A stretch of DNA of 28,223 nucleotides from a virus. The notes under the pieces are model-generated. The model saw only the letters and a program-made list of their open reading frames with translations. It was not told the DNA's origin and did not search any database. The stretch is from IMG/VR virus record IMGVR_UViG_3300040801_001358, positions 1 to 28,223 of that record, one strand, 5' to 3'. A program made the translations under genes and the position numbers. Shown here piece after piece: positions 10,048 to 26,192 of the stretch; position 1 is the first letter of the stretch, and every line of letters begins with the position of its first letter.

Positions 10048-11775
10048 ATGGCTGAGATGATGAATAAGCTACGTCAAGGGCTTATCCGTATGACGAAGCT
10101 GGATCAGGTTATCCGGCAACAGATGGCACTGTCTTCACAGGTGGGGGGAATTCAGACCCATTTTAGTGCTACGGATGATCTTGTGGGTGACCTTGCCGTT
10201 ATTGAGGAGACACTAAGCCAGTTTAACCTAATTACTCGGATGCACCGTGAACGTCGGATGCGGTACCGAGATTACGAAGCAATGGATAACTATGGTGATG
10301 TGTCTGTCGCTTTGGATATTTACGCTGAAGAGGCAACGCAGAACGATCTTGTTAAAGATACCAATCTTTGGGTTACAGGGGATGATAAGGTTGTCCAAAT
10401 CCTTGAGTCCTTTTTTGAGAAGCAACGTATTCGGACCCAAGTGTACGGCTTTGCCAGAACGTTAGCTAAATATGGAGATCTATTCGTTTCTGTAAGGTAT
10501 GATGTTAATGGAATTTCAAGCCTTCTTTATCTCCCCCCAGACTACGTAGAACGGATTGGTCTAGGGGTAGACAAGGTTAAGTACTACAAGCTTGAAAACC
10601 AGCTTAAACAAGTTTCTCCTCGTAAAGATGGAATGCTCCTTCCTTGGGAGTGTGTGCATTTTAGACTGCTCTCCTTCGGGTTTTCAACAATCTATGGTAG
10701 AGCAATTATAGAAGCTGCTAGAAAACGGTGGTTGCATCTAAAGCTTCTTGAAGATGCTGTGGCAATTTATCGGTTGAACCGAGCAGTTGAGCGGTTGATT
10801 TTCTATATTGACGTTGGTTCTGCTTCCCCTTCTGAATCTCTGCGTATTGTCAATCAGTATAAGCGGAAGTTCGGGAACAAGCGGTCGTATGTCGATCCTA
10901 GCACGCAGACTTTCGAGCAGCAGTATGACCCGCACAACATGCTTGAAAACATCTTTTGGCCGGTTAATAGTGCCACGGAACGGTCAAGAATTGAAAAGCT
11001 TAACCCTCCCCCGGAACAAGGACAACTCCAGGATCTGGACCACTTCAACCAGAAGCTATTCGTGGCTCTAGGTATTCCTAAGGATTTTCTAACTGGAGAA
11101 GTAACTGGAACTTGGAATAGCCGGGAATCCCTCGCCCTGCAAGATGTTCGTTTTTCTCGTAAACTTCACAGACTCCAACAGGCTGTTTTAGAGGGCCTTG
11201 AAACATTGTGCCGGTTCCATCTTGCTATCGTCTTAGGAGACGCTGATGCTGCTCAATCGGCCAATTTCCAGCTTCATATGTCTGATATTTCCAAGGTTGC
11301 TCGTCAACAGTACGACCAAGTCTTGTTGAATCGGGCTCAGTTGATGACTGTGCTTAACGATATGAGTCTCCAGATGAACCTGAATAGGGAAGTCTGGTTG
11401 TATTGGATTTTTGAAAACTACTTCCCAGATCTTCCTAAAGATCTTATTTCACATGTCATTATTCCTGATGCCGAGCTATCCAAAGCAAGTATGGATATTG
11501 CTCAAGCGAACCAACCACCGCCAGCAGCTACGGCGAAGCCAAAGGCGAAACCGAAAAAGAAAGCTAATGAGTCTGTCCGGGAACTTGTTCTTAAAGATAT
11601 AGACGGGGATAAGCGTGGTGTGTTAAAAGAACTTCTAGAGGAGTACACACCCCCAGAGGATTCGTTCTCTCAAACACTTATTGAAAAGCCTAAAATTGAG
11701 AAAGAATGGCTTACTCAATTAGTAGAGAGTTACAGTAGAAAGAAGAGCAATAATACTCTAACAGAGGAGAGCTAA
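10048..11775 (+). CDS. Portal protein (T4 gp20-like)
   Basis: Forms the ring at the head vertex through which DNA enters and to which the tail attaches. The gp20-type signatures are clear: RYRDYEAMDNYG then VSVALDIYAEEAT (72-97), LLEDAVAIYRLNRAVERL and IFYIDVG (233-257), and the region around IPKDFLTGEVTGTWNSRESL where gp20 proteins carry a conserved turn. Length 575 against about 524 in T4. The extra part is C-terminal: an A/P/K-rich linker (about 495-520, QPPPAATAKPKAKPKKK) and a charged helical end. AAGGGG lies at 10036-10041 before ATG 10048. The stop shares a base with the next start. Confidence 0.92.
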   Translation: MAEMMNKLRQGLIRMTKLDQVIRQQMALSSQVGGIQTHFSATDDLVGDLAVIEETLSQFNLITRMHRERRMRYRDYEAMDNYGDVSVALDIYAEEATQNDLVKDTNLWVTGDDKVVQILESFFEKQRIRTQVYGFARTLAKYGDLFVSVRYDVNGISSLLYLPPDYVERIGLGVDKVKYYKLENQLKQVSPRKDGMLLPWECVHFRLLSFGFSTIYGRAIIEAARKRWLHLKLLEDAVAIYRLNRAVERLIFYIDVGSASPSESLRIVNQYKRKFGNKRSYVDPSTQTFEQQYDPHNMLENIFWPVNSATERSRIEKLNPPPEQGQLQDLDHFNQKLFVALGIPKDFLTGEVTGTWNSRESLALQDVRFSRKLHRLQQAVLEGLETLCRFHLAIVLGDADAAQSANFQLHMSDISKVARQQYDQVLLNRAQLMTVLNDMSLQMNLNREVWLYWIFENYFPDLPKDLISHVIIPDAELSKASMDIAQANQPPPAATAKPKAKPKKKANESVRELVLKDIDGDKRGVLKELLEEYTPPEDSFSQTLIEKPKIEKEWLTQLVESYSRKKSNNTLTEES

Positions 11776-12164
11776 TGTCGGTCACTTTTCAAAAACTAGC
11801 GACCAGGATACAGAAAAGCTATGACAATGACCCGGATGCCCCACAGATTACACAACCGCAGTTGGTGGGGATTATGCACCGGGTATTCTATTTAATTGGG
11901 GATGCTCTATCTTCAGGTGAAGATGTTTATTTAGAAGGATTTGGCCGTTTTTATCCGGATTGTAAACCTCCAAGAAAGGTCAAATCGGGGTTGACTTCTT
12001 CTACCCATGTTACAGATTATAAGGTTTTTGTGAAGTTCAATCCGTTTAAACAGCTTAACAACCAGGTTGAAATTTACCTGAAACGACTAGGGCTAGATTT
12101 TAATTTTAACTCAGATACTCAAGAGGAGGAAAATGATGTTACCGCATTTGAAGAAAGAAAATAA
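11775..12164 (+). CDS. HU/IHF-like DNA-binding protein
   Basis: A 129-residue protein. Residues 28-62 (QLVGIMHRVFYLIGDALSSG, EDVYLEGFGRFYP) match the HU helix then the G-x-x-V-x-L-x-G-F-G-x-F hairpin, and 62-106 (basic PPRKVKSG arm, KVFVKFNPFKQLNNQV) match the rest of the fold, where HU has V-x-F-K-P-G-x-x-L. HU proteins bend DNA. A phage copy beside the portal could bind virion DNA, or the fold may be reused as a structural part, as is known for some phage head-tail connector or tail proteins with HU-like folds. ATG shares a base with the portal stop; GAGGAGA is at 11764-11770. Its end overlaps the next gene by 32 bases. Confidence 0.7.
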   Translation: MSVTFQKLATRIQKSYDNDPDAPQITQPQLVGIMHRVFYLIGDALSSGEDVYLEGFGRFYPDCKPPRKVKSGLTSSTHVTDYKVFVKFNPFKQLNNQVEIYLKRLGLDFNFNSDTQEEENDVTAFEERK

Positions 12165-12315
12165 TGCTGCACAGCAACCCTTTGTCTCTATTGACCAAGA
12201 GATTGCCAGTTTACACCAGGACAGGCACCCAGTTACTCCAGCTAGAGATGTGCCTAACACAGCTTTAGATAAAAAAGAGCCTCAAAATGATGCCGAGGCA
12301 ACTAACCGAAGCTAA
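12133..12315 (+). CDS. Short hydrophilic protein, unknown
   Basis: A 60-residue polar protein (MMLPHLKKENNAAQQPF...), probably disordered. GAGGAGG (12123-12129) lies ahead of ATG 12133; ATG 12136 is equally possible. It overlaps the previous gene by 32 bases and the next by 29 bases, which supports it as a real, coupled gene. Family not recognised. Confidence 0.65.
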   Translation: MMLPHLKKENNAAQQPFVSIDQEIASLHQDRHPVTPARDVPNTALDKKEPQNDAEATNRS

Positions 12316-13048
12316 AACTATTGGTGATCATGCTGCGGCGGATAGACCATGGAAACATCATGCAATTGCTGCTACAGTTCGTGCGGCTATCCGCCCTGGC
12401 AAACACCAAGCCCTACTAGATGTAGGTCAGAGGGTTATTTACCCTCGTTTTGCTCGTTTAGAAGCAAAGTTCAGACGAGATCTTGACGATGTTTTTAATA
12501 ACTTGTCTGCCTACCCTACACATAGGGTAAAGAAAATTTTCCGCCAAGCATACATCGAAGCTTTTCAATTGGGGCAATTGGCTGCAACCGGAAGCATGAC
12601 TGCTCCCCTTCCTACCCTTAAACCAGAAGATAAGCGGTGGCTTGAAACATTTTTGGATAAGGAGTACAAGCTTTGGAAAAAGTTTATTGCTGACGTGGAA
12701 AATAAGCGAGGAAAACTGGATTACACAAGACGAAAAGAGATGTATGTCCAGGCCCTCAAAGCAATGTACAATAGCTCTAGAGTGCTCGCTACTCCACCGA
12801 TGACCTTATACTACTGGGAAACGACACCATCAGAGCATTGTCCACATTGTTTGTATCTACAACTTAAAAGCCCCTTTATAAAAGAAAATCTCCCGACTAT
12901 TCCGGCGTCAGGAGATACAAAATGCCTGTCTAATTGTAAGTGTCATTTACGAATTGAGCACGCAACAGTAGCGAAATATATCCAGGTTAAAAGAAAGGCT
13001 CCGTCTCGTGATGAGCTTCTTCGAGGAATGCGAGCAGTATCTAAGTAA
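12287..13048 (+). CDS. Head morphogenesis protein, Mu gpF-like C-terminus
   Basis: A 253-residue basic protein. Residues 45-165 are helical. The end carries a cysteine/histidine cluster: C185-x2-C188 (EHCPHC), then a SGDTKC turn and C213-x3-C217-x-C219-H220 (CLSNCKCH), the typical ending of Mu gpF/SPP1 gp7-type minor head proteins and probably a zinc site. Those proteins sit near the portal and help head assembly. ATG 12287 (or 12290) overlaps the previous gene; only a weak AAGAG is upstream. The position close after the portal fits the role. Confidence 0.6.
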   Translation: MMPRQLTEAKTIGDHAAADRPWKHHAIAATVRAAIRPGKHQALLDVGQRVIYPRFARLEAKFRRDLDDVFNNLSAYPTHRVKKIFRQAYIEAFQLGQLAATGSMTAPLPTLKPEDKRWLETFLDKEYKLWKKFIADVENKRGKLDYTRRKEMYVQALKAMYNSSRVLATPPMTLYYWETTPSEHCPHCLYLQLKSPFIKENLPTIPASGDTKCLSNCKCHLRIEHATVAKYIQVKRKAPSRDELLRGMRAVSK

Positions 13049-13081: not shown

Positions 13082-13528
13082 ATGAGCCTAAAAGAGTATT
13101 TAGATGCTTTCATTGAAGAAGCTGTTGTAGAGTTAGTAGACCCTGATGTTGCGGCATATATTCTTCTATCGGAAGACTTTTCTTTTGAAGATATCAGTCG
13201 TAAGGAATTACTAGAAACTGTAACAAAACGAGTCATTTATCGTGGAGGTCATAAACTCACTGTTGCACGACGTGGGCGTCCTAACCCAGCAAGGTCTATC
13301 AAAGCTAAACAAGCGGCTAGGAAAAGTATGGCTCGTCGTAAAGCTGCCCAGCGAAACCCAGCAACTAAGCGTAAGCGTAAAATGGCTATGCGGATGCGTA
13401 AATCTGTTACTGGGAGTCGTAAGGCAACTTATAGAGGATTCCATGGAACGAAACGGCATGGTGGACCTAGAAGAATCCGGCCTAAGATTAGACGACCGGC
13501 GTTCTCACGTCCTCCTCGTAGGCGGTAA
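13082..13528 (+). CDS. Very basic phage structural-type protein
   Basis: A 148-residue protein. The first 50 residues are acidic/helical (LKEYLDAFIEEAVVELVDPD). From about residue 48 it becomes extremely basic (RVIYRGGHKLTVARRGRPN, then repeated K/R clusters to RRPAFSRPPRRR). This split, including V-x-R-x-V-x-x-G-x-x...RRGRP, is like small basic proteins found near the capsid genes of many large phages. It could bind DNA, or the acidic part could dock on another virion protein. ATG 13082 follows GAGGTG at 13072-13077. Ends 2 bases before the next gene. Confidence 0.8.
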   Translation: MSLKEYLDAFIEEAVVELVDPDVAAYILLSEDFSFEDISRKELLETVTKRVIYRGGHKLTVARRGRPNPARSIKAKQAARKSMARRKAAQRNPATKRKRKMAMRMRKSVTGSRKATYRGFHGTKRHGGPRRIRPKIRRPAFSRPPRRR

Positions 13529-13530
13529 TA

Positions 13531-16500
13531 ATGGAAAAATATGATCGGTACGGAACAGCCCTTATTGTAGAAGCATACGGCCCAGGAAGAGGGTTGGCTG
13601 ATGTTGAGCAGCCTATTCCTGGGGGTTGGAAAGCTGTGGATGATTTAGAGGTTGAAGAGCTATTTAAGCCTCGTCTTCAAACTTTTAATATCCCTACAAA
13701 ATTAGCTTTTTCCGCGTTACTTAGAGTGGGCGGAAATCCCAAAATGTATGTTCGTGGTGTGCCTGATTCTGAAGGCAGTATTGTTGACTCTATCAAAAGC
13801 CCAACGAGTTTAACCACTCTTGCAAAAGATGTAAAAACAGTAACCATGGAGGGGCATCCACCACACTCATTTCGAGTGTATATTACAGGGCCTGCTCCGG
13901 ATGAGTTTAAGAAGCTTGTTAAAAACGCTCACACACTTTGGCTTGAACATGAAAAAAAGCCAGAAGTAACAACCTTAGAAAAAGTTCAACGAGTTCTAGA
14001 CCAGTATGTCCGGACAAAAATGTCCCGTCCAGTCATAAATTGCTGGATTGAATTTGCTGTTGAAACAGAAGAGGGGGCTAGACCTTCCGGGCATACTAAC
14101 ACGAAGTTTTCCTATGTTCAGACGGGCTATAGTGTGGCTGCCCATGCGGGTGGTTATGCTGCCCAGACTCCTAGTGAAGAAGAACAGCGCTGGCTTACTA
14201 CGCAGGATAGAAAAGAGCTAAAAAACATAGGCAATGTAGATAAGCTAGCTAACGCGGTTTTAAATCGGTACTATCATGACGTTTGGAAGGTTTTTAAACG
14301 TTACGTTTATGATGACCCTTATGGAGTTGTCCACACTATCCATCATGAGTTAAAAAAGGGTGAAGTCAGAATTGCGTATGATAAGACTAAGGGGAAACCC
14401 GTACCGACCTCAGCTACAACTCCTGAGAAAAAGTATGATCCTTCAGAGCCGCATAAAAATCCTGTCTTGTACCCTGCTTCTTCTGGGACTGTGTATGACG
14501 CGGTTACTAAACGGAGAACCCCGTTAACTCATCCGCACCAGGGGTATGTGACAAGCACTAATCCTAGACCAAGATCTGGCGTTGTAGCTTCTATTAGACA
14601 GACCGCTGGTGATGTTGGTAACATGCTCATTAGTGCCGATCCAAAAGATCGTGTTGTCCAACACGCCGATGGATCATTTACTCGCCCTGACCCGCTACCC
14701 CCACTTGTGGGGAAAATGGTTCCAGAATCCCCAGTAAAACCCCTGGTAGATACAGAGAAATACAAGGCCATTTTTGGTATTTACTATGACCACCCGATGA
14801 TTGTTCCTAAGTTGAGTAGGCAGGTGTACTGGTATGGGAGCAGGGAACAATTTTTCCGAGCAGTATTTGAATATGCTGTTATGACTGGGGATAGACCTGT
14901 TTTAGCCTACCATATTTTTGGTAAGAAAGGTAACCGAGCTAATATTTCTATAAGCCGTAAGGAGTTAGAACTTGACGGCAGTATTGAAGGACGGAGAGCA
15001 CAAGAAGCGATTGATAAAACTATCGAGGCTTTTCATAGGGAAGTTAAACGAGGTGTGGCTCTTTGGCCTGCTAAAATTGCTAAATGGTTGGGTGTGTCGG
15101 TCGATTTGTCACAGAATGACATTCCAGTAAACCCCCTGAGAGATATGCCTAAGGGGAAAAAGATTGACCCTGAGGGTTGGACAAAGTATAGAAATTATAT
15201 TAGGAACCAATCCCGGCAGGTTTTGGGCTTGAATTTCCAAGCACAGCTAGCTAAGAAGTATATCAACCCAACACTTGGTCAAAAAGAGAGATATAAGTTT
15301 TCCCGGCATGAGATCCCGGCACGAGTAGGTTTAGCAACAACGGTCAAGTATACGGGAGAACGAGATAAGCAAGGGCGTCCAGTTGAACCGTGGGGTGTTT
15401 ATCTGGTTGAATACCTATTAGCACATAAAACCTTAGGTATGCACGGCAGCACGTATATGATTCCCTTGAATATTGTTCGTGCTAATGAAGATATCCCTCC
15501 TAGAGGAACGTTGAAGCGGTGGTCTCAAGCAGAATATATGACTTTGATGCGGGAGAAATTTCCCAAGTATAACTTGCACACGCTTAGTAATTGGCGGTTT
15601 TTACGTGCAAGAACAGACCATCATTTTCCATTTTCTCGGCTTATTCGTGTTTCAGTTGCTCTTGAAGAAGACCTTCCTAAGATTAATGCCCAGCTATCTC
15701 AACGAGGGGTACGAAATATCCAACGGACTACTTTTGGGTACAAAATTGATGGGATCGAGTGGGATGCTTACCAAATGGTGGTAGCTATGCCCCCATCGGT
15801 AGCAGAAAAAGAGTTTGGGCTAATTCATCGAGCAGCGTACTCAAGATTAATCTTGGACGAGCCTAGAATTGTTGAACAATTACGTCGTGGAGTAAAAGGT
15901 AACAGACGTTCCTTAGTGGCCTTTGGGCTCTCTCCTGTAGCTATGTCATCAGAGTTTCTTACCTCACCGTGGTCAAAAGCAGACCCAAAGAGTATTGACC
16001 CTAATGACTTTGGCCCTACTATGACCATTCTTCCTCCGGGGTATTTTCAAAGTAAGATTGGTCAACAATGGGTACCTAAGGTTCATGAGCATTTAAATGA
16101 GGCTGGGGAAGTAGTCGCCCGAGCTATTGTTGGTTATGAACACGCTAATAATCCAGAAGAACGAATGGACACTTGGTTAAAATACGCTAAGAAAATTGTA
16201 GAAAAGACTAATGAAGTCGAGTATGATATCCGCCATTATTTGAGGGCATTAGCTAACGTTAAAATGGAGCAACGTAGTCGGTTAGGTCAAGAATTGGACC
16301 AAAACTTAGAGCTTTATATCAAATACGTTAAAAGAGAAGTTACACCTACAGGAGGAAGCTACACTATTCCTGTAGTTATGTATCGAATTGGTTTGGCTAC
16401 ATACCAAGCTCCTGTTGGTTCTTCGAAAGTTAGAACGGATTGGTTAACCATTAAAGCTCCGTCAGAATCTGTAGCCCAACTACTAATTTTGTATAGACTG

Positions 16501-16758
16501 CTTCGTCGTTCTGCGGCTAATAAGCAATTAGGTAACGCCATGAAAATTAGGTCCGCAGGAGGAAAATTTAGAATTTTCCCCGATATGAATGCTCGTTTAC
16601 TGGCTCAGTGGGCTAAAGCTAATTTCATTGTTATCCGCCAAGATGAGCCAAAAGGAATTCGTAGAATTGCTCCTAGGATTCGTTTTGATCGTAAAGATTT
16701 AGATCGTGGAGCTATAGATTCCCATCATCTATTAGCTAAGTTGTTGAGGATTGATTAA
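13531..16758 (+). CDS. Very large (1075-residue) basic protein, unknown
   Basis: The largest gene here. I recognise no family. ATG 13531 follows AGGCGG closely. The protein is basic and rich in R, K, Y and P. Residues about 280-410 are a proline-rich, probably flexible stretch (HPHQGYVTSTNPRPRSG). Several places show a strand-then-helix unit with P between (FRVYITGPAPDEFKKLVKNA near 115; WLTIKAPSESVAQLLILYRL near 990). No nuclease, polymerase, protease or lysozyme motif is visible. Its length, lack of membrane segments and place between portal and protease suggest a virion protein, perhaps internal, but that is inference. The stop shares a base with the next start (TAATG). Confidence 0.9.
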   Translation: MEKYDRYGTALIVEAYGPGRGLADVEQPIPGGWKAVDDLEVEELFKPRLQTFNIPTKLAFSALLRVGGNPKMYVRGVPDSEGSIVDSIKSPTSLTTLAKDVKTVTMEGHPPHSFRVYITGPAPDEFKKLVKNAHTLWLEHEKKPEVTTLEKVQRVLDQYVRTKMSRPVINCWIEFAVETEEGARPSGHTNTKFSYVQTGYSVAAHAGGYAAQTPSEEEQRWLTTQDRKELKNIGNVDKLANAVLNRYYHDVWKVFKRYVYDDPYGVVHTIHHELKKGEVRIAYDKTKGKPVPTSATTPEKKYDPSEPHKNPVLYPASSGTVYDAVTKRRTPLTHPHQGYVTSTNPRPRSGVVASIRQTAGDVGNMLISADPKDRVVQHADGSFTRPDPLPPLVGKMVPESPVKPLVDTEKYKAIFGIYYDHPMIVPKLSRQVYWYGSREQFFRAVFEYAVMTGDRPVLAYHIFGKKGNRANISISRKELELDGSIEGRRAQEAIDKTIEAFHREVKRGVALWPAKIAKWLGVSVDLSQNDIPVNPLRDMPKGKKIDPEGWTKYRNYIRNQSRQVLGLNFQAQLAKKYINPTLGQKERYKFSRHEIPARVGLATTVKYTGERDKQGRPVEPWGVYLVEYLLAHKTLGMHGSTYMIPLNIVRANEDIPPRGTLKRWSQAEYMTLMREKFPKYNLHTLSNWRFLRARTDHHFPFSRLIRVSVALEEDLPKINAQLSQRGVRNIQRTTFGYKIDGIEWDAYQMVVAMPPSVAEKEFGLIHRAAYSRLILDEPRIVEQLRRGVKGNRRSLVAFGLSPVAMSSEFLTSPWSKADPKSIDPNDFGPTMTILPPGYFQSKIGQQWVPKVHEHLNEAGEVVARAIVGYEHANNPEERMDTWLKYAKKIVEKTNEVEYDIRHYLRALANVKMEQRSRLGQELDQNLELYIKYVKREVTPTGGSYTIPVVMYRIGLATYQAPVGSSKVRTDWLTIKAPSESVAQLLILYRLLRRSAANKQLGNAMKIRSAGGKFRIFPDMNARLLAQWAKANFIVIRQDEPKGIRRIAPRIRFDRKDLDRGAIDSHHLLAKLLRID

Positions 16759-17933
16759 TGGCGCATATTACTGTCGAAAGACATGTTATCTACTTAGAAG
16801 CTGTAAGATACTCTGGGGATCGGGATCAAACCCATCTTCGAGTTCGTTCTCTGCGGCTTCCTTGGGGGCAAAGTTCGTCTCCTAGAACTGTTCTGTATAT
16901 GGATGAAGAACAGTTTGGTGGCGTGCAAGGCCGAGTAGACGGGCAGTCTTTAGACGCGATGAAAAATTTCTTTTTAGGACGAGGTTACCCTCATCCAAAG
17001 TTGATCGTTGCAAGTGTTACAGACAATGACTTAATGAGCAAAAAAGAGATTGGACAGACACTTGTTGCTAATTATAAACAGGATATAAGAGAGCTTAGTA
17101 ATACAGGGGTGAGACTGGACTCGCCGTTTCTTGGTGAGGAGGATTTTGCGACTCAGATGGCAAGATACCATCAAGGAGATCAAGAAACTTGGAGTAGAGA
17201 AGCGGCTTCTATACCTGGTAAGGAGCAATATTATAAACCGGAATATCCAAAACATGGGTTTAATACTATCTGGCTGTTATATGACCCTACTCGTCCTGGG
17301 AGACAGATGCTCCCTAAAGATAGGGCAATACGACTGGCTAAAACTGTTCTAAGAGATTCCTTTGCCACAAAACTTTACCGAGGGCATCGTGGTCGTCAAA
17401 AATTATGGGAGAAAAATACCCCGGTAATTCTTGGTGTAGGGTATATGCTCCAGTATTGGGTAAAGAATCCTGCTCCAGATGCTGTCAGATTGGAAAGTGT
17501 GGATCAACGGGTTCGTGCGTACCTTAGTCGTGTTCTGCCCTCTTCTAGGCGTTCGGAGGTTAGTTCCGGGGCACAAGTTTGGTATGCTTTAGGTTTACGG
17601 GAACTCCCTAAACAAAGTATGCGTTATGAGCCAACCCCTGGAGGGAGAATTCGTCGGTATACTACTTTTCGTCCTGGGGTAGGGATAACAACGGCTAGGC
17701 CGGATGAAACAGCCAGATATGTGCCTTTATTTACTGTTCAGGGGCGGAACTTAGAAGATGCGAGAGAGAGAGCGGAGCGAAAACTTTATCGAATGATCAA
17801 GGGGCCAGATTTAAAACTTAAGAATCTCGCTTATGTATGGGACAGAGAATGGTCCGCAGCTAACCGAAAATTGGTTACTCGTAATTCTTTGCAAATGTTA
17901 CAGCAACGGATTAGGGCTATGAAGAACCAATAA
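16758..17933 (+). CDS. 391-residue basic protein, unknown
   Basis: Coupled to the 1075-residue gene through TAATG. Basic, with mixed strands and helices. Residues about 305-345 (TARYVPLFTVQGRNLEDARERAERKLYRMIKG) repeat the strand, turn, long helix ending in LY-R pattern seen near the ends of the 1075- and 499-residue neighbours. Followed by a 65-base gap with a new ribosome site, so it may end a translation unit. No enzyme motif seen. Family not recognised; probably works with the gene before it. Confidence 0.88.
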   Translation: MAHITVERHVIYLEAVRYSGDRDQTHLRVRSLRLPWGQSSSPRTVLYMDEEQFGGVQGRVDGQSLDAMKNFFLGRGYPHPKLIVASVTDNDLMSKKEIGQTLVANYKQDIRELSNTGVRLDSPFLGEEDFATQMARYHQGDQETWSREAASIPGKEQYYKPEYPKHGFNTIWLLYDPTRPGRQMLPKDRAIRLAKTVLRDSFATKLYRGHRGRQKLWEKNTPVILGVGYMLQYWVKNPAPDAVRLESVDQRVRAYLSRVLPSSRRSEVSSGAQVWYALGLRELPKQSMRYEPTPGGRIRRYTTFRPGVGITTARPDETARYVPLFTVQGRNLEDARERAERKLYRMIKGPDLKLKNLAYVWDREWSAANRKLVTRNSLQMLQQRIRAMKNQ

Positions 17934-17998
17934 TGTTAGAAAGTTTATCTTATTGGGGTTTATTAGATGTGTTCGTTTGAATATTATAGGAGGATACG

Positions 17999-18367
17999 AT
18001 GAATCGAGCAATTGACACCCTATTTTACCAGTGGGCTACTACTGATGATGACAAAAGAATTCCTACAATTATTGAAGATATTTCCGAGATGGAAGATGCT
18101 GAGAAGATTGATGTTCTACTAACTGAGTATGCCGGATATGTTGCAGAACTTATTGAAATGGAAGTTCTTTCTAGAGCTATTATTGATGAGAAAATCCAAA
18201 TGGCTCAAGAAGACCCTGAACTTGCAGAAGAAGATCAAGAGCTAGTAGCTAAAGCTATTATGGAATCTGATGATGTTTGTGAGATCCAAGAGGCGGTAGA
18301 CTCGTCTAAGAAAGCTCTAGAGCTTCTGCATAATAGTATGGTAAGAGTCTTCTCTCGTGAGGTGTAA
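17999..18367 (+). CDS. Small acidic helical protein
   Basis: A 122-residue strongly acidic, all-helical protein (DDDKRIPTIIEDISEMEDAEK; QEDPELAEEDQELVAKAIMES). TAGGAGG (17988-17994) lies ahead of ATG 17999, inside a 65-base gap after the previous gene, suggesting a strongly translated first gene of a sub-block. The acidic helical build would suit a chaperone, scaffold helper or partner of the basic proteins next to it. Family not recognised. Confidence 0.85.
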   Translation: MNRAIDTLFYQWATTDDDKRIPTIIEDISEMEDAEKIDVLLTEYAGYVAELIEMEVLSRAIIDEKIQMAQEDPELAEEDQELVAKAIMESDDVCEIQEAVDSSKKALELLHNSMVRVFSREV

Positions 18368-18369
18368 TT

Positions 18370-18843
18370 ATGGGTACACCACTTACAAGAGCATCGCAAA
18401 TTATTGACCCTGAAGCTGTTCAGAAAGCACTTGATGCGCTTTTGCACGGGGGAGACGAGCCTGCGGATAGAGATACCAGGGCTAAAGGTTGGAACGAAGG
18501 AGTTTATAACATGGAAGCTAAAAAAATGTGGTATGAGGAACTTTCAGATATCGACGCAGTTATTTCTGAAAACGTAGAGGTTCCCCTTACAACACTTCCT
18601 ACAGGAAATCTTGTTAATCAGATTGAGGAAGCTGTTGAGCGGTTAAGTACTTGGTATGCTGCCGCAGTACCAGTATTCCAAAAGCGGATGCTCCATATTC
18701 ATTATGATGAGCTTGCAGAAGTAGCTGGAGACCTCCGTGGTGGGAAGATCAACGCTGCGGAAGCTCAAGCTCGGTTTCATACTATTATGGCTGACGTAGC
18801 TGAAATTGAGGGCTTCTCTAAGTTTTTCATGACGGAGGGATAA
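18370..18843 (+). CDS. 157-residue helical protein, unknown
   Basis: Starts 2 bases after the previous stop with GAGGTG (18359-18364) upstream. Acidic and helical, with SSDxD-like polar N-terminus and long helices (LVNQIEEAVERLSTWYAAAVPVF; YDELAEVAGDLRGGKINAAEAQARFHTI by segments). No membrane segment and no enzyme motif. The neighbouring genes on both sides are co-directional and tightly packed, so it belongs to the same block as the acidic protein before it. Family not recognised. Confidence 0.85.
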   Translation: MGTPLTRASQIIDPEAVQKALDALLHGGDEPADRDTRAKGWNEGVYNMEAKKMWYEELSDIDAVISENVEVPLTTLPTGNLVNQIEEAVERLSTWYAAAVPVFQKRMLHIHYDELAEVAGDLRGGKINAAEAQARFHTIMADVAEIEGFSKFFMTEG

Positions 18844-18846
18844 GAT

Positions 18847-19206
18847 ATGCCAACCCTCGCTTTTGATGGGTCGGTTATCTATTCTACCGCTGTAGATCGT
18901 AGAGAAATAGTTTATATCGCCCCGTCGTATACCGTGGAGGTATTGTCCACCCACGCGCAAACTAGTGTTGCTGCGGGGAATTCTCACACATTTGATTTTG
19001 CAAACCACCCAAATGGACAGGCTACAAACTTCATGTTATCTCTTTCTGAGGGTGATGTAGATGTAGCTATTACTAATAGTTCTGGAACAATCACATATGC
19101 TAATGTAACTCCTTCAGGTATGTTGATTTTGATGAACGTTATTATAGACCAGGTGGTTATTACTGCGAATGCCGATTCTGTTTATGACATGATCGCAGGA
19201 GGATAG
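18847..19206 (+). CDS. Small beta-rich protein, decoration-like
   Basis: A 119-residue protein with GGAGGG at 18835-18840 before ATG 18847. Nearly all beta: alternating hydrophobics (IVYIAPSYTVEVLS, FMLSLSEGDVDVAITN, MLILMNVIIDQVVITAN). Small, beta-rich, well-translated proteins of this size in phage head clusters are often decoration or head-surface proteins; that is the best guess, not shown by any motif. Ends 1 base before the next gene. Confidence 0.85.
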   Translation: MPTLAFDGSVIYSTAVDRREIVYIAPSYTVEVLSTHAQTSVAAGNSHTFDFANHPNGQATNFMLSLSEGDVDVAITNSSGTITYANVTPSGMLILMNVIIDQVVITANADSVYDMIAGG

Positions 19207-19207
19207 A

Positions 19208-21367
19208 ATGAGTAATCTTCCTAAGCTCCCCGATCTTGGGCAATTTTTTGGAGACACAGGCGGGCCAGGGATGACCACCCCAAATGCTCCTAGTACAGAG
19301 AGCCAGAAAAATTGCCCATTTCTTGACCCTAAAATGGGGGAGTTTTGTACTCTAGATGGAGCGCTGTGCCCTTTTGTGGGGTTTAATTATCGTCGTTGCC
19401 GTAAGTACACTAATAACATGGCAAAAGCCAACATGCAACCTGCTGCTCCTAGCGCAAATAATTCTAGTGGGGGCGGGCCACCTAGAGTAGAATCGCTAAC
19501 AGAAGCAAGACAAGGCCCACGGAAACCCCGGCGTAAAAAAGACGCCAAAAAAGGGGGGTCTGAACCTCAAAAAAGAGAGCCGGTAGATATTGCTGGGGTA
19601 GATGTTCGTAATTTACCCCAAGAGGTTCAAGTTTTTGCGGCACATATTGCTCATCATGCTTTAAATGACCCTGATGAAATAACTAAGCAGGATAAAGAAG
19701 AGGCTGTCAAAAGCTATTTACAGTCAAGACGGACTCCTGATCCAACGTACTATGACCCTACACATGAAAATTACATTTTAAAAGGCGTTCATGGTGACCT
19801 TTTAGCCGCTGCTTTACACCAGATTCATGGTATCGGAGTTAGTAGAGCTAGGGGGATGGGGGGTGACTACACCCAAATAGCCCATGCTCAAGCAGGAGAA
19901 ACCTTTAACCGCAGCAACATGAAGGAACGCGAAGACGCTTATAAAGCAGCCCAAGAAAAGAAGGATCGTTCTGCGTTAGAAATTTTTGCTAACCCCCAAA
20001 TTCAGGGGGATAAACCTCGTGGAGGACCGACTACGGATGACCCCGAGGATGTAGAAGTAGCTCGGGCTGTGAGATCTGCTCCTCGTTCTCCTAAACCAGA
20101 AGAGAATGTCCCTCCTCCCCCACCAGGAGAGGCTGAGGCTCCTCCGGGGGGTAGACATCCAACAGGAGTAGCCCCAACCTCATCTACAACGGGGAAAGTT
20201 CATAGGGTTGTGTTGCGTCGGAGTGTTCATAAAGCTCCTGGAACTCGTCCTTTTTCTGTATCGGCAGATAAGGTAGACCAGGAAGAGAAGCCGAAGAAGA
20301 AAAAGCCTACAAGGTATGTCGGTAGTGAGAGTACTATGCCGCAGGCATCTTATGAAAAGATGACTTATGAGCAGTTTGAACAATACTTAGACGACTACGT
20401 GGACCCGTTATCTCCTACAGAAAAGAAACATCTTTTTCCTAATATTGGAGAGCCTGGGCATCCGGCAAACTATGAAACTTTTAAAAAGCAACTTTTAGCT
20501 AAAGCGCATAGGCAAGCAGAGCTAAAAAACTTTAAAGCAATCGCGGATTCTTACCGGATACTTTGGGATGATCGAAAAGGTTTACATGATATCCAGCGTA
20601 ATAAGCGGGAGTTAGAAAGAGCTTGGGATCAAAATCTAGAGTTGTTGAAACAGTACCCTGTAGGAGATCGTAAAGCTCTCGAAATGGTATTGAATAAGAC
20701 AAAAACAGATCCTAAACAACAGGAAATAGCTGCTAAGTTCATGAATAAGCTCGTTGATCGTGCTTATGATATTGAAGCTAAAACGATGAAGATTGGTAAG
20801 AATGATCTTACTGTTTTTCTCCGGCAAGTTAAGCTCCCCACGTTTAACCGGCAAGACTATGAAGTCATGCGTATGGCTGAACAAATGGGGCTTATTGCCA
20901 TTCAAAAGCAGCATCAATATGGTCGGGGCTATGGTCGTTGGAATACCTGGAATCTATTCTTCAAACAAGTTGTAGTACCATTCATTTTGTACTACACGGA
21001 TAACTCTAAACTTATCCAACCACTTATGCGTCTTTGGCCGCAAGCTCTATTAGACCAGTTCTATTTTGCATATGTTCGAAATGTTCTTCCTAAGTTAAAG
21101 AAACAAGATGTTCCTGAGTTGGTTCCATCTAGAGATACAAAGTTTTTGACGAGTGTAAAAGTATCTGGTAAACGTGGAGAACGGATTTTGCGAGGATGGG
21201 ATGCCGATGCGTTGCTCCCGCCAGATAGAGCAGTTCTTCAAACTAGATGGTACCCAACGACAAAAGAAACCTGGGGGAAACGGAGACACTCTGTTCTTAT
21301 GGCTAGATATGAAAAAGCCAAAGCGAAGCTCCCAGAGGTAACCAGGAAGACGTTTCTAAGGAGATAA
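19208..21367 (+). CDS. 719-residue protein with N-terminal four-cysteine cluster
   Basis: GCAGGAGG just before ATG 19208. Residues 36-64 hold C36-x10-C47-x6-C54-x9-C64 with CP starts (CPFL, CTLDG, CPFVG, RRCRKY), a likely metal site (zinc, or iron-sulfur). Then a basic low-complexity stretch (about 100-125), a region around 140-240 with H-rich helices, a proline-rich linker (about 300-330, PPPPPGEAEAPPGG), and a helical, basic C-terminal half (about 380-719) with KNDLTVFLRQVKLPTF and FFKQVVVPFILYYTDN. Not recognised as a whole. The multi-domain layout with flexible links, between portal and protease, suggests a virion or DNA-associated protein. Ends 1 base before the next gene. Confidence 0.9.
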   Translation: MSNLPKLPDLGQFFGDTGGPGMTTPNAPSTESQKNCPFLDPKMGEFCTLDGALCPFVGFNYRRCRKYTNNMAKANMQPAAPSANNSSGGGPPRVESLTEARQGPRKPRRKKDAKKGGSEPQKREPVDIAGVDVRNLPQEVQVFAAHIAHHALNDPDEITKQDKEEAVKSYLQSRRTPDPTYYDPTHENYILKGVHGDLLAAALHQIHGIGVSRARGMGGDYTQIAHAQAGETFNRSNMKEREDAYKAAQEKKDRSALEIFANPQIQGDKPRGGPTTDDPEDVEVARAVRSAPRSPKPEENVPPPPPGEAEAPPGGRHPTGVAPTSSTTGKVHRVVLRRSVHKAPGTRPFSVSADKVDQEEKPKKKKPTRYVGSESTMPQASYEKMTYEQFEQYLDDYVDPLSPTEKKHLFPNIGEPGHPANYETFKKQLLAKAHRQAELKNFKAIADSYRILWDDRKGLHDIQRNKRELERAWDQNLELLKQYPVGDRKALEMVLNKTKTDPKQQEIAAKFMNKLVDRAYDIEAKTMKIGKNDLTVFLRQVKLPTFNRQDYEVMRMAEQMGLIAIQKQHQYGRGYGRWNTWNLFFKQVVVPFILYYTDNSKLIQPLMRLWPQALLDQFYFAYVRNVLPKLKKQDVPELVPSRDTKFLTSVKVSGKRGERILRGWDADALLPPDRAVLQTRWYPTTKETWGKRRHSVLMARYEKAKAKLPEVTRKTFLRR

Positions 21368-21368
21368 T

Positions 21369-22868
21369 ATGGGCCGCAGCACAGCACGTAAAATAACGCC
21401 TGTCCATACCGCTGTAGGTGGTGCTCGCCCTGCTGACTTTGAAGGGGCAGATTTTTCTCTGCGTGGTTTTTGGATTCACCCTACTCGTAGGCTTACGGTA
21501 GAGGTGCCTATTCTACAACATGGATTTTACCCAAAACTGGATCATACAGATTTAGATATTGAGCGCCAGGTGCAATATCGTATGGTTCAAATGCCCTCGT
21601 TATCCGATCTTCGTAAGGCAGGGATTGAGGCAGATCAGGCTGCTTTCATAGCTGAAATTTGGGTACACCCAAGGTACATCAAAAACTGGAATTACTTCAG
21701 GACTGATTTTCCGGCTAACGTCAAAACGTTGGTTAGAAATACTAATTTTGCTTTTGTTTTCCCCGCAAATGACATGCCTTTTGCAAGATTTAAGAGAAAA
21801 GAAGTACTCCAATTTTGGCGGTCGGCATTTACGCCATTATTTATCGACGGGAAGCACTATACTTCTGGTCGGATGAGCATGTTTTTTGTGGCCCCTCCGC
21901 ATGTTTCCGCTGGGTTCAGACGTAAATTAAATCTCGAACATGATGAAGATTTTAACAACCTAGTTGAGTGGAGTCCGGAAGAATGGCGGTTGCGGCAAAC
22001 AAGGATGCGGCGACCAAGTATGCGTAGAGAAATTTCTCCTGAAATTTTTTATGGTTTCCGCCCACAGGTTGTAGATGAAACTTCTGCCCGGTTAGAACGA
22101 GAGATTGGGCCGATTATAACATCTAAGCTTGGGATTGACCCTCGCTCTAATGAAGGAAAAGCAATCCTTCATATACTGCAAGATAAAGAACTCAGTAAAT
22201 CTTTACTTGCAAAGACTCAAAATAAAAAATACCGTTTTCCTGCGGTTAAAGCTTGGGTGAAATATAACTTGTGGCCTCGTATTAGTTCCTTTGCCAAGGA
22301 AGAAGGAGCGGCTATTGGTCGTTCCATGCTTGATTTCGCTTTTAAAACTACAGTTACCGTAGCTGTAAACGCCATGTTAGAAAAGTTAGTTGGGAGACCT
22401 ATTGAAAATCCTAAGGTTGCTGCTAGATATAAGCGGCGTTATCCTACGAGGTATATAGTCCGACAAGCTGCTGGGAAGTTTGAATATACTCCTTCTCAGT
22501 ACTCTACTGCTACTCAAATTGGTGCGGGGACACTGTCTTATAAATTCCGCACAAATGCACAAGATAAAGAGTCTATGATGAACGCACTTAGACAAGAAGC
22601 GTTCAGGCTTTATAAGCAGTTGTCTGGAGATGATGTCGGTCCTATTGGTAAAGAATTTATCAAGATCTCCTTTGCTCCCGGTGACCGAGTTAGGCTTTCT
22701 CTGGATTCTAAACAAATAGAGCACTTCTACCATGAAGTTCCTGAGTATCTATTAGGAAACTTTGCAAACCCAGATTGGGCAGAAAGCGCAAAAGTTTACT
22801 TACGGATGGTTGAGCGGGATATCAATAGTATTTACCAGGAAATGAAACTAAGTGGCGCAGAATATTAA
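21369..22868 (+). CDS. 499-residue basic protein, unknown
   Basis: AAGGAGA (21358-21364) precedes ATG 21369. N-terminal 230 residues are mixed alpha/beta with many aromatics (IHPTRRLTVEVPILQHGF; AEIWVHPRYIKNWNYFRTDF). Residues about 300-335 include a helix LDFAFKTTVTVAVNAMLEKL. The C-terminal part has paired strands then a helix (GTLSYKFRTNAQDKESMMNA, LRQEAFRLYKQLSG), like the ends of the 391- and 1075-residue proteins. No enzyme motif recognised. Follows the Cys-cluster protein by 1 base. Confidence 0.9.
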   Translation: MGRSTARKITPVHTAVGGARPADFEGADFSLRGFWIHPTRRLTVEVPILQHGFYPKLDHTDLDIERQVQYRMVQMPSLSDLRKAGIEADQAAFIAEIWVHPRYIKNWNYFRTDFPANVKTLVRNTNFAFVFPANDMPFARFKRKEVLQFWRSAFTPLFIDGKHYTSGRMSMFFVAPPHVSAGFRRKLNLEHDEDFNNLVEWSPEEWRLRQTRMRRPSMRREISPEIFYGFRPQVVDETSARLEREIGPIITSKLGIDPRSNEGKAILHILQDKELSKSLLAKTQNKKYRFPAVKAWVKYNLWPRISSFAKEEGAAIGRSMLDFAFKTTVTVAVNAMLEKLVGRPIENPKVAARYKRRYPTRYIVRQAAGKFEYTPSQYSTATQIGAGTLSYKFRTNAQDKESMMNALRQEAFRLYKQLSGDDVGPIGKEFIKISFAPGDRVRLSLDSKQIEHFYHEVPEYLLGNFANPDWAESAKVYLRMVERDINSIYQEMKLSGAEY

Positions 22869-22882
22869 GTGGGATACTCCTA

Positions 22883-23587
22883 ATGCACCCTAGTCAGGCT
22901 AAAGCTATTTTCATGATTGAACGAGGCGTGACTCATATCACGGACAAACTCTTAGAAGAGTTTGATGTGGATGAAGCTGACGCTCTCGAAATCGTCCGGA
23001 GTCTTCCTGATTTAAGGCATAAGTTGCAGCATGGAGGGATACACTCGCTATACGAAGAGGCTAAAAAGAGTGTTGCTGCTGTAGTGAACTCCCCCAAAAA
23101 TCCTAAGGAATACTACCCAGGGCATCCAGGGTATCTCCCTCCGATAGCAACTAAGGATGTCTTTAACGAGCACATGGCTAAAGCTATGGAGCCGTATGTA
23201 ATAGCAATAGCTAAAAAAGTAGCCCAAGATCGCGGTATACAGCCCCCTAACGAGGCGGCAATAAAACGGGAGTTAGGACGCACAGACTGGGCCAAAGCAG
23301 CATACGAGGCTAAAAGGATGCCAAGGAAGCCCCCTCCAGGGAAAGTTCGTCTATTTTTTAACAAATGGGTTTTTAAACCAATAGGCAAGGTGTTAGACCT
23401 CCCACTAGAAGAAGTCTTTGGTTTAATTGGCGCTTCTGCGGTAATTTGGGTTATGTGGTCCACTTTTCATGAGCGTCTTTCAGAAATTGGGTCACCTTTT
23501 ACAAAAAGCGTTTTAAAAACTTTGGATTTTATGGCTGATCGCAAAACTAATAAATTTATGCGAAAGTATGGCAACCGATGGGCGTAA
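22883..23587 (+). CDS. 234-residue protein with one C-terminal hydrophobic segment
   Basis: ATG 22883 has only a weak GGGAT upstream, 14 bases after the previous stop, so it may rely on coupling. N-terminal half is helical (KAIFMIERGVTHITDKLLEEF). Residues 90-140 are basic with proline (PRKPPPGKVRLFFNKW). Residues about 183-203 (VFGLIGASAVIWVMWSTF) form a possible membrane or buried hydrophobic helix, followed by a basic tail. A membrane-touching virion protein, for example one acting during DNA entry, would fit; no motif proves this. Overlaps the next gene by 10 bases. Confidence 0.85.
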   Translation: MHPSQAKAIFMIERGVTHITDKLLEEFDVDEADALEIVRSLPDLRHKLQHGGIHSLYEEAKKSVAAVVNSPKNPKEYYPGHPGYLPPIATKDVFNEHMAKAMEPYVIAIAKKVAQDRGIQPPNEAAIKRELGRTDWAKAAYEAKRMPRKPPPGKVRLFFNKWVFKPIGKVLDLPLEEVFGLIGASAVIWVMWSTFHERLSEIGSPFTKSVLKTLDFMADRKTNKFMRKYGNRWA

Positions 23588-23976
23588 AACGGCAGTGGAA
23601 AATTAAGAAATTAACTGAGCTAGCTGTTACCCCGGAAATTCGACAACAGCTTGTAACTGATATCATGCGGAGAAAATCTCCGCAGATACGTTTATACGCC
23701 TGGGATGTACACACAAATATTGCTGAGGAAGCTTTTTTTGACCAAATGAGTGCCGTAAAAAACTGGTATATACAGAACCGTCTTTGGGAACAGGAAAGTT
23801 GCCCCAAAGGCGTTTTACTTTATGAATGGGCAGAGTCTATTGACCAGGTATTAAAACATAGTGATAAAACTCACATAAAGAATATTCCATTAGCTTCCGC
23901 GCAAAAGATTCATGTTGCTATCTCACCTTCTGCACTACATGAGGATATGCAACGAACCCTGAAAAAGCAGGGGTAA
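23578..23976 (+). CDS. 132-residue basic protein, unknown
   Basis: ATG 23578 lies inside the end of the previous gene and no clear ribosome site is visible, so coupling is likely. Basic N-terminus (GVKRQWKIKKLTELAV), then mixed helix and strand with many aromatics (YAWDVHTNIAEEAFFDQM; NWYIQNRLWEQESCPKG). Last gene of the unrecognised block, before a structured gap. Family not recognised. Confidence 0.8.
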   Translation: MGVKRQWKIKKLTELAVTPEIRQQLVTDIMRRKSPQIRLYAWDVHTNIAEEAFFDQMSAVKNWYIQNRLWEQESCPKGVLLYEWAESIDQVLKHSDKTHIKNIPLASAQKIHVAISPSALHEDMQRTLKKQG

Positions 23977-23980
23977 GTCC

Positions 23981-24052
23981 CCCCCTATTCATATATTATT
24001 AGCTTAATTAAGTGTATTGGGAACTGGTGCATAGCCAGGAAATTATAGGAGG
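23981..24052 (+). promoter_or_regulatory. Leader with near-perfect anti-ribosome-site pairing before gene 24059
   Basis: CCCCCTAT (23981-23988), just after the upstream stop, pairs with ATAGGAGG (24045-24052) at 7 of 8 positions (one A-C mismatch). The same layout occurs before gene 1201. The C run could instead pair with GGGG at 23970-23973, so two folds compete. Confidence 0.35.
24004..24017 (+). promoter_or_regulatory. Candidate phage promoter motif (TTAATTAAGTGTAT)
   Basis: Second strong copy of the motif at 1141-1154, also followed by AACTG (24021-24025 region) and also placed between anti-site run and ribosome site. It lies 55 bases before ATG 24059. No standard sigma70 pair with good spacing is visible in this gap. 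Confidence 0.3.
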
Positions 24053-24058
24053 TAAAAC

Positions 24059-24331
24059 ATGGCATTTCCGAACATGGATCTTCAGTCTCTACCTGCGATC
24101 ATTGATTTGCGTGTGGGGACGGATCAAGCAGAACGGGCGCTTCAGCTTTCATATTGGCAGGTTTGGGCGGCGGTTCAGAGTCTTAATTTCATTAAGACCA
24201 GCGAACTGTATCCTGAGCAAGTTAAGAATGCAGGTGATGAAGCTAGTTTTGACACTGCCCTGGATACTCTCATTACGGCCCTTGTAGCCGCAGTTGTTGA
24301 GTATGATGCTATCTGGGCGATGCTTCCGTAA
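24059..24331 (+). CDS. Small helical protein, strongly translated
   Basis: A 90-residue protein with TAGGAGG (24046-24052) before ATG 24059. Mostly helical (AERALQLSYWQVWAAVQSL; FDTALDTLITALVAAVVEYDAIW), with an A/V/L-rich C-terminal helix that could be membrane-near or buried. First gene of the protease-capsid group, with its own structured leader. Family not recognised; small helical proteins before the protease in T4 (gp67, gp68) are prohead core parts, a possible parallel by position only. Confidence 0.8.
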   Translation: MAFPNMDLQSLPAIIDLRVGTDQAERALQLSYWQVWAAVQSLNFIKTSELYPEQVKNAGDEASFDTALDTLITALVAAVVEYDAIWAMLP

Positions 24332-24710: not shown

Positions 24711-26192
24711 ATGACTGAACTTTATGACGTTATGCCCTTTGAATACCAGATAACTGAGTCTGCAAATGGGCGGCTGCGTGTTGAAGGAGTGTTTCAGCGG
24801 TCTGATGTAGCGAATGCCAATAAGCGGGTTTATCCTCGCAGCATTTGGGAGAGAGAACTTAAAGAACCGCGTGTTAGAGAAGCGTTGGAAAGCAAAGCCA
24901 TGTTTGGGGAACTTGATCACCCCGCAGATGGTAAAACGTCTTTAAAGCGCGTATCTCATGTGGTTACAGATTTGTCTCTGCAAGAAGACGGCACTGTTAC
25001 TGGTGCCGCCGAAATTTTGGGCACTCCTAATGGACAGATTCTAAAGACCCTTTTTGAATCTGGCGCACAAGTCGGCATCAGTTCCCGTGGTTCCGGCAGT
25101 GTCCAAAATGGTGTTGTACAGGAGGACTTCAAACTGGGTACTTTTGATTTTGTAGCGCGTCCTTCAACCCCAGGTGCGCTCCCCCGTCCAGCGGGGGAAT
25201 CCAACAGTAGAGGAGTTCATACGGAAGATGAGATTGAAAAGGTTCAAATCTTATCCACAGATGACTCGTCAAGTAAGGGAGACCTTTTTGATAAGTTCTT
25301 TGCGGAATTAGAGAGCTTTGATTCAAATCTGTATGAAGAAGCCTTTACGGGGGACATAAACGAAGTAGCTAAGGATGTTATTGGCCTGTATAATTACATT
25401 GCTAATAATGATGTTACTTCGGAGATGATTGAAGAAGTAAGTGGTGCGGTTATCCAGCTTACAGGCATTCTTACAGAAATGGCTGCACAGCAACCCGAAA
25501 ATGCAGATATTATTGCAGATTTATTAAACAAAGTTGAATTAAGTAGGCGGGCGCTTATTTGGAAAGATCCCGCAGGAAATATTAAGGAGGAACCGATGAA
25601 TAAGCTTGAGTTCATTAAGGAACGCCTGAACAGTCAACAAGTTGATGAGCAGGTACAGTTGGAGGCTGAGATGGATGAACTTCGTGCTCAGCTAAACGAA
25701 CTCAGCGACGAAGAGCTTATTGAAGTTGCCATCGAAACTGGGGCGATTGACCCGGATGACCTTATTGAGGACGATGACAATGACGATGGATCTGAAGTTG
25801 ATCTTCAACAGCTTTTTGACTATGTCGAAGGGCTGGAGAATCAACTGCAAGAAGCTAGTGGTCTGATCGAACAGATGGCTGGTGCTCTTGAAGAAGCTGA
25901 TGTAGATGGTATTGCGCTGAAGTATGAAGCGGCGCTTGGTATCATCCAGGAAACTGTAGCCCGTTATCAATTGCTACAAGAGGCTGTTGGTGGCGAAGAT
26001 AAGGCCAACGAGTTGATGGAAAGCCATCTGAGCAAGCTCGAAGGTAATACAGACAGTGTTGAGGAATCCGCTGACGATGGCAGCAGCCTTGTTGAAGGTG
26101 TTCTCAACGAAGATGGTTCGGAAGACGCAAACATGAAAGAGTATCTTCGACTTGCTGAAGGTGCCAAGCAGCGTCTTAACCTGACAAACTAA
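24711..26192 (+). CDS. Prohead protease (T4 gp21-like) fused to scaffold-like tail
   Basis: Serine protease that matures the prohead by cutting scaffold and capsid proteins. Residues 1-160 match the gp21 family: NKRVYPRSIWEREL (37-50), FGELDHPADG with H70, SLKRVSHVVTDLSL, GTPNGQILKTLFESGAQVG (104-122), SSRGSGS with S124/S125, DFKLGTFDFVARPSTPGA. H70 and one of S124/S125 are the likely catalytic pair. The rest (about 165-493) is acidic and helical, like a scaffold: LQEASGLIEQMAGALEEAD and similar. Length 493, about twice T4 gp21 (212). AGGAGA lies at 24699-24704. An internal in-frame start at 25596 would make the scaffold part alone. Confidence 0.93.
   Translation: MTELYDVMPFEYQITESANGRLRVEGVFQRSDVANANKRVYPRSIWERELKEPRVREALESKAMFGELDHPADGKTSLKRVSHVVTDLSLQEDGTVTGAAEILGTPNGQILKTLFESGAQVGISSRGSGSVQNGVVQEDFKLGTFDFVARPSTPGALPRPAGESNSRGVHTEDEIEKVQILSTDDSSSKGDLFDKFFAELESFDSNLYEEAFTGDINEVAKDVIGLYNYIANNDVTSEMIEEVSGAVIQLTGILTEMAAQQPENADIIADLLNKVELSRRALIWKDPAGNIKEEPMNKLEFIKERLNSQQVDEQVQLEAEMDELRAQLNELSDEELIEVAIETGAIDPDDLIEDDDNDDGSEVDLQQLFDYVEGLENQLQEASGLIEQMAGALEEADVDGIALKYEAALGIIQETVARYQLLQEAVGGEDKANELMESHLSKLEGNTDSVEESADDGSSLVEGVLNEDGSEDANMKEYLRLAEGAKQRLNLTN
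25596..26192 (+). CDS. Nested scaffold protein from internal start
   Basis: ATG 25596 is codon 296 of the protease gene, in frame (885 bases in), and is preceded by AAGGAGG (25584-25590) at a 5-base spacing, the best possible ribosome site and the only such site I found inside a gene here next to a start codon. The product would be 198 acidic, coiled-coil residues (LEFIKERLNSQQVDEQVQLE; QLFDYVEGLENQLQEASG), like T4 gp22 or lambda Nu3. In lambda the scaffold Nu3 is made the same way inside the protease gene C. Scaffold is needed in excess over protease, which explains a strong internal site. Confidence 0.75.
   Translation: MNKLEFIKERLNSQQVDEQVQLEAEMDELRAQLNELSDEELIEVAIETGAIDPDDLIEDDDNDDGSEVDLQQLFDYVEGLENQLQEASGLIEQMAGALEEADVDGIALKYEAALGIIQETVARYQLLQEAVGGEDKANELMESHLSKLEGNTDSVEESADDGSSLVEGVLNEDGSEDANMKEYLRLAEGAKQRLNLTN

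Follow-up and report, generated by a model that had tools for sequence, protein, structure and literature searches.

A clade-specific block of nine genes, candidates for internal virion proteins, in the head cluster of a T4-type myovirus

We analyzed the complete IMG/VR virus record IMGVR_UViG_3300040801_001358, a stretch of 28,223 bases from an uncultured phage that we refer to as the window; tail genes lie beyond its end. Nine adjoining genes at positions 13531–23976, between those for the portal and the prohead protease, form a block of about 10.4 kb that is clade-specific and inserted among conserved head genes of an otherwise T4-like cluster. Their products are nine new protein families. 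The reading we favor, holding it with about as much confidence as doubt, is that this T4-type myovirus packs them into its virion as clade-specific internal proteins, belonging to the prohead core, ejected into the host, or both.

The nine genes and their relatives

A preliminary description of this DNA had reported nine tightly coupled open reading frames (ORFs) with portal and protease genes on either side, the larger products being basic and of no recognized family. All of this is borne out. The nine ORFs are present with the positions and lengths it had assigned, all on the plus strand, and their spacing varies between an overlap of 10 bases and a gap of 65. The largest, P0001 (13531–16758), encodes 1075 residues with an isoelectric point (pI) of 9.7, is nearly cysteine-free and has no family match; P0002 (16758–17933; 391 residues, pI 10.1) is likewise basic and contains no cysteine. 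Three small acidic proteins follow: P0003 (17999–18367; 122 residues, pI 4.1), P0004 (18370–18843; 157 residues), the best conserved of the block at about 63–81% identity, and P0005 (18847–19206; 119 residues), which weakly matches phrog_16410, a family of unknown function (E 3e-4). P0006 (19208–21367; 719 residues, pI 9.6) is built of a conserved N-terminal module with four cysteines, a variable middle rich in lysine and proline, and a conserved C-terminal region ending in FLRR. In P0007 (21369–22868; 499 residues, pI 9.8), a conserved N-terminal alpha/beta domain leads through a basic linker to a helical part. P0008 (22883–23587; 234 residues, pI 9.5) and P0009 (23578–23976; 132 residues, pI 9.4), whose start overlaps the end of P0008, complete the block. 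A clear Shine-Dalgarno sequence precedes most of the ORFs, and a promoter scan returned no more sites than shuffled sequences did. Because tblastn finds homologues of all nine in related contigs, in unchanged order, and Shine-Dalgarno sequences are mostly present, we regard the nine ORFs as real genes rather than chance occurrences.

None of the block proteins significantly matched a family of known function in Pfam, PHROGs, NCBIfam, or PADLOC, and profile searches against the PDB with P0001, P0002, P0004, P0007, and P0006 (the whole protein and its N-terminal module) yielded nothing significant. One outcome named beforehand as speaking against virion proteins was that known non-virion enzymes would clearly match; such matches were looked for and none was found. 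An all-against-all profile comparison detected no kinship among the block proteins, no paralogues of them were found elsewhere in the genomes, and virion RNA polymerase had no family match. AlphaFold models, built from eight sequences, were middling for P0007 (pLDDT 66) and poor for P0001 (pLDDT 54); with models of this quality, remote kinship visible by fold alone could be missed. Structural matches to the P0001 model were discarded as generic helix bundles. For residues 9–185 of P0007, the Foldseek rows are mostly GNATs, with a best E of 0.013, which is below significance, and VIA gives Z 5–6 with a root-mean-square deviation of about 4 across some 110 residues of this middling model. At the place of the GNAT acetyl-CoA loop (Q/R-x-x-G-x-G/A), the alignment has R-[GTS]-[DE]-F-P-A, which lacks the central glycine, in a register that is itself taken from a weak model. 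We treat the GNAT-like fold of the N-terminal 185 or so residues of P0007 as a lead only, a consistent but weak resemblance that falls short of significance.

We gathered relatives through portal and capsid searches and then located block genes in them by tblastn. Eight contigs (G000, which is the window, G012, G013, G002, G007, G009, G008, and G010) carry all nine genes in one and the same order, and two partial contigs are consistent with this, one stopping (G001) and one starting (G005) within P0006. Since the figures for G008 and G009 are identical, these two are probably one population, which leaves about seven independent complete cases. The order is thus the same in every relative, as the block's proposed unity had called for, and no loss was seen in the clade. 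Identity to the window by tblastn ranges from 25 to 85%, the low end being P0002 at about 25%, and the closest relative reaches 82–84% for P0003 and P0004; among block carriers, capsid proteins are 78–94% and portals 61–87% identical. Together, the preserved order and these identities indicate that the block is under selection and kept whole, with its large members evolving faster than the shell.

Beyond this clade we found no trace of the block. When 2.9 million viral contigs were scanned with profiles of P0001, P0004, P0007, and the N-terminal module of P0006, no contigs turned up beyond those already found, and every carrier of the block in the collections searched has a capsid protein at least about 78% identical to that of the window. 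A scan of 84,980 bacterial and archaeal genomes with the P0007 and capsid profiles gave no relative, so no host is proposed. There was no match in a nucleotide search of phages; in cultured phages, tblastn gave none for P0001 and P0007 and only chance-level rows for P0004 and P0005. In a more distant cousin (G014, L077), whose capsid protein is 45% identical, the terminase, portal, HU-like, and 12287 genes described below are kept and followed by other genes, and profiles of all families detected no block homologue. The cultured T4-type relatives Molly_1 and Mel-JY01 have one to three small genes separating portal and protease, and SP-15 and LIS04 have ribonucleotide reductase genes there. It is on this distribution, in close relatives only and neither in the nearest cultured T4-type phages nor in the 45% cousin, that we call the block clade-specific.

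Composition and a candidate processing site

Six of the nine proteins in the window are basic (P0001, P0002, P0006, P0007, P0008, and P0009; pI 9.4–10.1), and this charge is conserved. P0001, P0002, and P0007 have a pI of 9.4–10.7 in every orthologue despite identities of only about 25–60%, and the charge of P0006, P0008, and P0009 is nearly as constant across relatives. For comparison, 17% of 218 other ORFs of 200 residues or more exceed pI 9.3. Cysteine makes up 0.04–0.09% of P0001, P0002, and P0007 versus 0.9% elsewhere in the genomes, and is thus 10–20 times rarer. Structural proteins as a class are also low in cysteine (0.5–0.8%), but the five large block proteins, when pooled, fall below the other structural genes as well (P 8e-4 and 5e-7 in two genomes). 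G002 (160660–162912) and G010 (60942–63146) encode, at the distal end of their structural region, a further large basic, cysteine-free protein of 750 and 734 residues, respectively (pI 10.2–10.3), which may belong to the same internal set.

P0006 carries a candidate prohead-protease site, L-T-E|A, at residues 97–99 (19496–19504, plus strand). An LxE followed by alanine or glycine is present in all eight sequences that hold this stretch, in surroundings that are poorly conserved. The four cysteines of the N-terminal module (residues 36, 47, 54, and 64; 19313–19399, plus strand) precede the site, and in the five relatives checked all cysteines lie N-terminal to it, so that the predicted cleaved form would be cysteine-free like its neighbors. 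Across all families, conserved glutamate columns are enriched for LxE plus a small residue (15/184, versus 3/175 for aspartate and 2/124 for lysine), driven mainly by scaffold, capsid, and minor-head proteins.

Three of the basic proteins also have a moderately hydrophobic segment. In P0008 it lies near residues 173–191, at about the same alignment position in 8/8 sequences, and a peak at a roughly fixed position is seen in most full-length members of P0006 and in 6/8 of P0007. Since the mean maxima are only 1.3–1.6 on the Kyte-Doolittle scale, under the typical membrane threshold, we make no claim of membrane insertion.

The head genes around the block

A T4-type portal gene (10048–11775; phrog_213, E 2.6e-39) flanks the block upstream, and downstream lies a gene in which the prohead protease is fused to an acidic scaffold-like part (24711–26192; Peptidase_S77, E 8e-20; phrog_207, E 1.6e-45); these and the genes of the window given below with both coordinates between 8518 and 27578 are on the plus strand. 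With a gp23-like major capsid protein (26226–27578), the phage as a whole presents a T4-type portal, a Peptidase_S77 protease, and a gp23-like capsid protein in that order. Contractile tail genes follow the capsid gene in the relative G002 (sheath, phrog_23, E 1.5e-101; baseplate wedge, phrog_219, E 4e-59). That the sheath and baseplate genes sit there, 3' of the capsid gene, led us to reject the idea that the block consists of tail genes.

The interval between portal and protease also holds five genes that the preliminary description had omitted. Immediately 3' of the portal gene is one for an HU-like DNA-binding protein (11775–12164; PF00216, E 1.6e-8; phrog_379), retained even in the distant cousin G014. 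Next comes a basic protein of 253 residues (12287–13048), a minor-head candidate with a conserved LxE|A at residues 6–8. Its C-terminal CxxC...C...C we take to resemble that of Mu F/SPP1 gp7-type minor head proteins, for which Pfam gave no confirmation. A histone-like protein of 148 residues and pI 11.7 (13082–13528) directly precedes the block; its LxE at residues 43–45 abuts a body rich in lysine and arginine, and an L/I-x-E stands immediately before the histone-like body in 7/7 sequences. Two small genes (24059 and 24344) lie between the block and the protease gene. Upstream of the portal gene are a terminase-like gene (6374), a gene for an acidic protein of 139 residues (8518–8937) with a conserved LxE|G at residues 15–17, and, between the latter and the portal gene, one of 364 residues.

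The 8518 and 13082 proteins, otherwise unrelated, share their first 23 residues (8518–8586 and 13082–13150; E 4.5e-5, one of 435 pairs), and among 1,109 ORFs the N-terminal profile of each has the other family as its best non-self match (E 0.01–0.15). Judged from this similarity, the shared N-terminus is a candidate capsid-targeting tag, and the two proteins have the look of T4-style cargo. In T4, the first ten residues of IPIII suffice for head targeting, and the protease removes the tag (PMC9026906).

The acidic part of the protease gene has a pI of 4.2 and a net charge of −64. A nested in-frame start within this gene (25596–26192), with a conserved AGGAGG, would yield a probable separate scaffold protein: the ATG at 25596 follows a strong Shine-Dalgarno sequence (AGGAGGAA, then ATG) in 9/9 contigs checked, a stretch that encodes the conserved residues KEEPM. 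The scaffold is therefore probably made alone as well, for which lambda Nu3, encoded within C, is a precedent.

Several other features of these phages deserve mention. The capsid protein, otherwise highly conserved, has a hypervariable insertion at about residues 133–225 that is related to stretches in tail sheath and baseplate/tail proteins of the same phages (G005 12126, G012 20008, G010 33868, and G002 154322 among them), as if head and tail share one surface domain. In the cousin G014 (100408–109176), the terminase, the portal, and the 12287 homologue each contain a large in-frame insert, that in the 12287 homologue being an intein with a LAGLIDADG domain; inserts in three adjoining packaging genes are unusual. 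The window also encodes a 101-residue protein (5015–5320), possibly for lysis, whose N-terminus is strongly hydrophobic in every relative examined, and G002 (21746–24310) one of 854 residues whose VWA domain is CobT-like (PF11775, E 6.9e-14), so that this phage carries a gene of the cobalt-chelatase type.

What the block may encode

Several lines of evidence point to internal virion proteins. The block lies on one strand, tightly spaced, between the portal and minor-head genes and those for the protease-scaffold and capsid. It is adjoined by the acidic protease-scaffold gene and by genes for the HU-like protein and the histone-like protein with its T4-style N-terminal tag. Basic charge and cysteine depletion are conserved, P0006 has its LxE|A/G site, and the machinery is of the T4 Peptidase_S77 kind. 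The preliminary description had proposed a single system, made up of internal virion proteins, of a large portal-vertex complex, or of products delivered to the host. The genes do belong together, and composition and one protease-type site favor an internal virion role; the proteins may also form one complex or be delivered.

Packaging, cleavage, scaffold-mediated recruitment, and ejection are the parts of this reading that we infer. As the prohead assembles, the basic members of the block (P0001, P0002, and P0006–P0009) would gather round the very acidic scaffold from the protease-scaffold gene, the small acidic partners P0003–P0005 would join them, and the whole set would be enclosed along with the portal. 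Cutting at L-x-E|A/G would then strip the four-cysteine module from P0006. Once mature, the basic, cysteine-free proteins would remain beside the packaged DNA, forming a core or a DNA-bound inner body, and some of them at least would exit with it upon infection.

A number of observations weigh against this reading. Three members of the block are acidic (P0003–P0005; pI 4.1–4.6), and other basic, cysteine-free proteins exist in the structural region outside it. P0006 alone within the block has a convincing protease site; LxE plus a small residue is not enriched there (2/33 conserved glutamate columns versus 2/51 for arginine). The shared N-terminal tag was looked for on the block proteins and found on none, PHROGs gave no convincing match to known internal or ejection protein families, and a confident fold was obtained for none of the block proteins.

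Core genes 67 and 68 of T4, both small, map between portal and protease. The core and internal proteins of T4 (gp67, gp68, gp22, IPI–III, and Alt) resemble the present set in this placement of core genes, in pairing a Peptidase_S77 protease with LxE-type sites (candidates here), in having basic proteins, putatively internal here, next to an acidic scaffold, and in the N-terminal tag, here found on two neighbors of the block (8518 and 13082). Unlike in T4, there is much more coding sequence here, the block proteins lack the tag, and we found no sequence relation. It is possible, if rather doubtful, that the block encodes non-ejected machinery for assembly or the portal vertex, namely extra scaffold, core, or portal-collar proteins that help to build an unusual head and are then retained or lost. 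The block occupies the place of genes 67 and 68 beside the scaffold gene, and its strict retention across the clade fits such a role. However, members of 122, 82, and 58 kDa far exceed the T4 core proteins, a collar has no obvious need for conserved basic charge and strong cysteine depletion, and the identity of block proteins is well below that of portal and capsid.

Giant phages (SPN3US, the phiKZ inner body) combine many large head proteins with a T4-related protease, as the present phage would. Ejection proteins in giant phages are not always processed (PMC5694885), and this incomplete processing resembles the single block protein with a clear site. The SPN3US protease cuts after AXE (PMC10052503), in contrast to the candidate LxE here, and there is no convincing PHROGs match; these giant phages also have a virion RNA polymerase, and nothing similar was found here.

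T4 packages Alt and the IPs (PMC9026906), and P1 packages six Dar proteins, including ones of 251, 109, and 69 kDa (PMC9024508). Like the P1 set, ours would combine large and small proteins packaged in the head of a phage that has a contractile tail and a prohead protease, with some of the genes adjoining portal and protease (PMC9024508); gene order and sizes differ, and there is no convincing sequence match. With these precedents for packaged proteins (PMC9024508, PMC9026906), a set that counters defenses or takes over the host, delivered along with the DNA and comparable in function to Dar or to the T4 Alt and IP proteins, could explain why the proteins are large, fast-evolving, clade-specific, and encoded in the virion gene cluster, and the weak GNAT-like N-terminal fold of P0007 would suit it. 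We consider this unlikely: neither Dar nor Alt nor any enzyme family gave a match, the GNAT likeness is below significance with the usual acetyl-CoA loop unseen, and the set is lost in no relative, whereas T4 Alt is dispensable (PMC9026906).

T7 (gp14/gp15/gp16) and P22 (gp7/gp16/gp20) eject multi-protein sets from the head with their DNA. Similar protein sizes recall these sets, as do the moderately hydrophobic segments that P0006, P0007, and P0008 have at roughly fixed positions; unlike them, the block proteins have hydrophobic segments under the membrane threshold and occur with a contractile tail (seen in a relative), and there is no convincing sequence match. It is tempting to speculate that the block is an undescribed multi-protein ejection apparatus of basic, cysteine-free proteins, of which P0006, P0007, and P0008 have one hydrophobic helix each, and which would assemble in the host envelope as a conduit or DNA-translocating complex, but we think this quite improbable. 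The proteins would have to exit the head of a contractile-tailed phage before or with the DNA, and to our knowledge such an envelope function is known mainly from short-tailed phages. Least credible of all are non-virion genes, such as replication or transcription factors, that sit in the head cluster by chance: the ribonucleotide reductase genes of SP-15 and LIS04 show that such cargo can land at this place, but no library holds an enzyme family for these proteins, their composition is unlike that of the genome's other proteins, P0006 has its conserved protease-type site, and gene order is fixed in all relatives.

If the block proteins are indeed in the particle, as in the reading we favor, the head of a T4-type phage carries roughly 390 kDa of unique protein sequence, the sum of the nine masses, without a recognized relative. 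This would add to the short list of phages with large internal protein sets and mean that such a set can be acquired as a single block between portal and protease. Nine new families, which come with usable alignments, would then be a target at hand for studies of structure and delivery.

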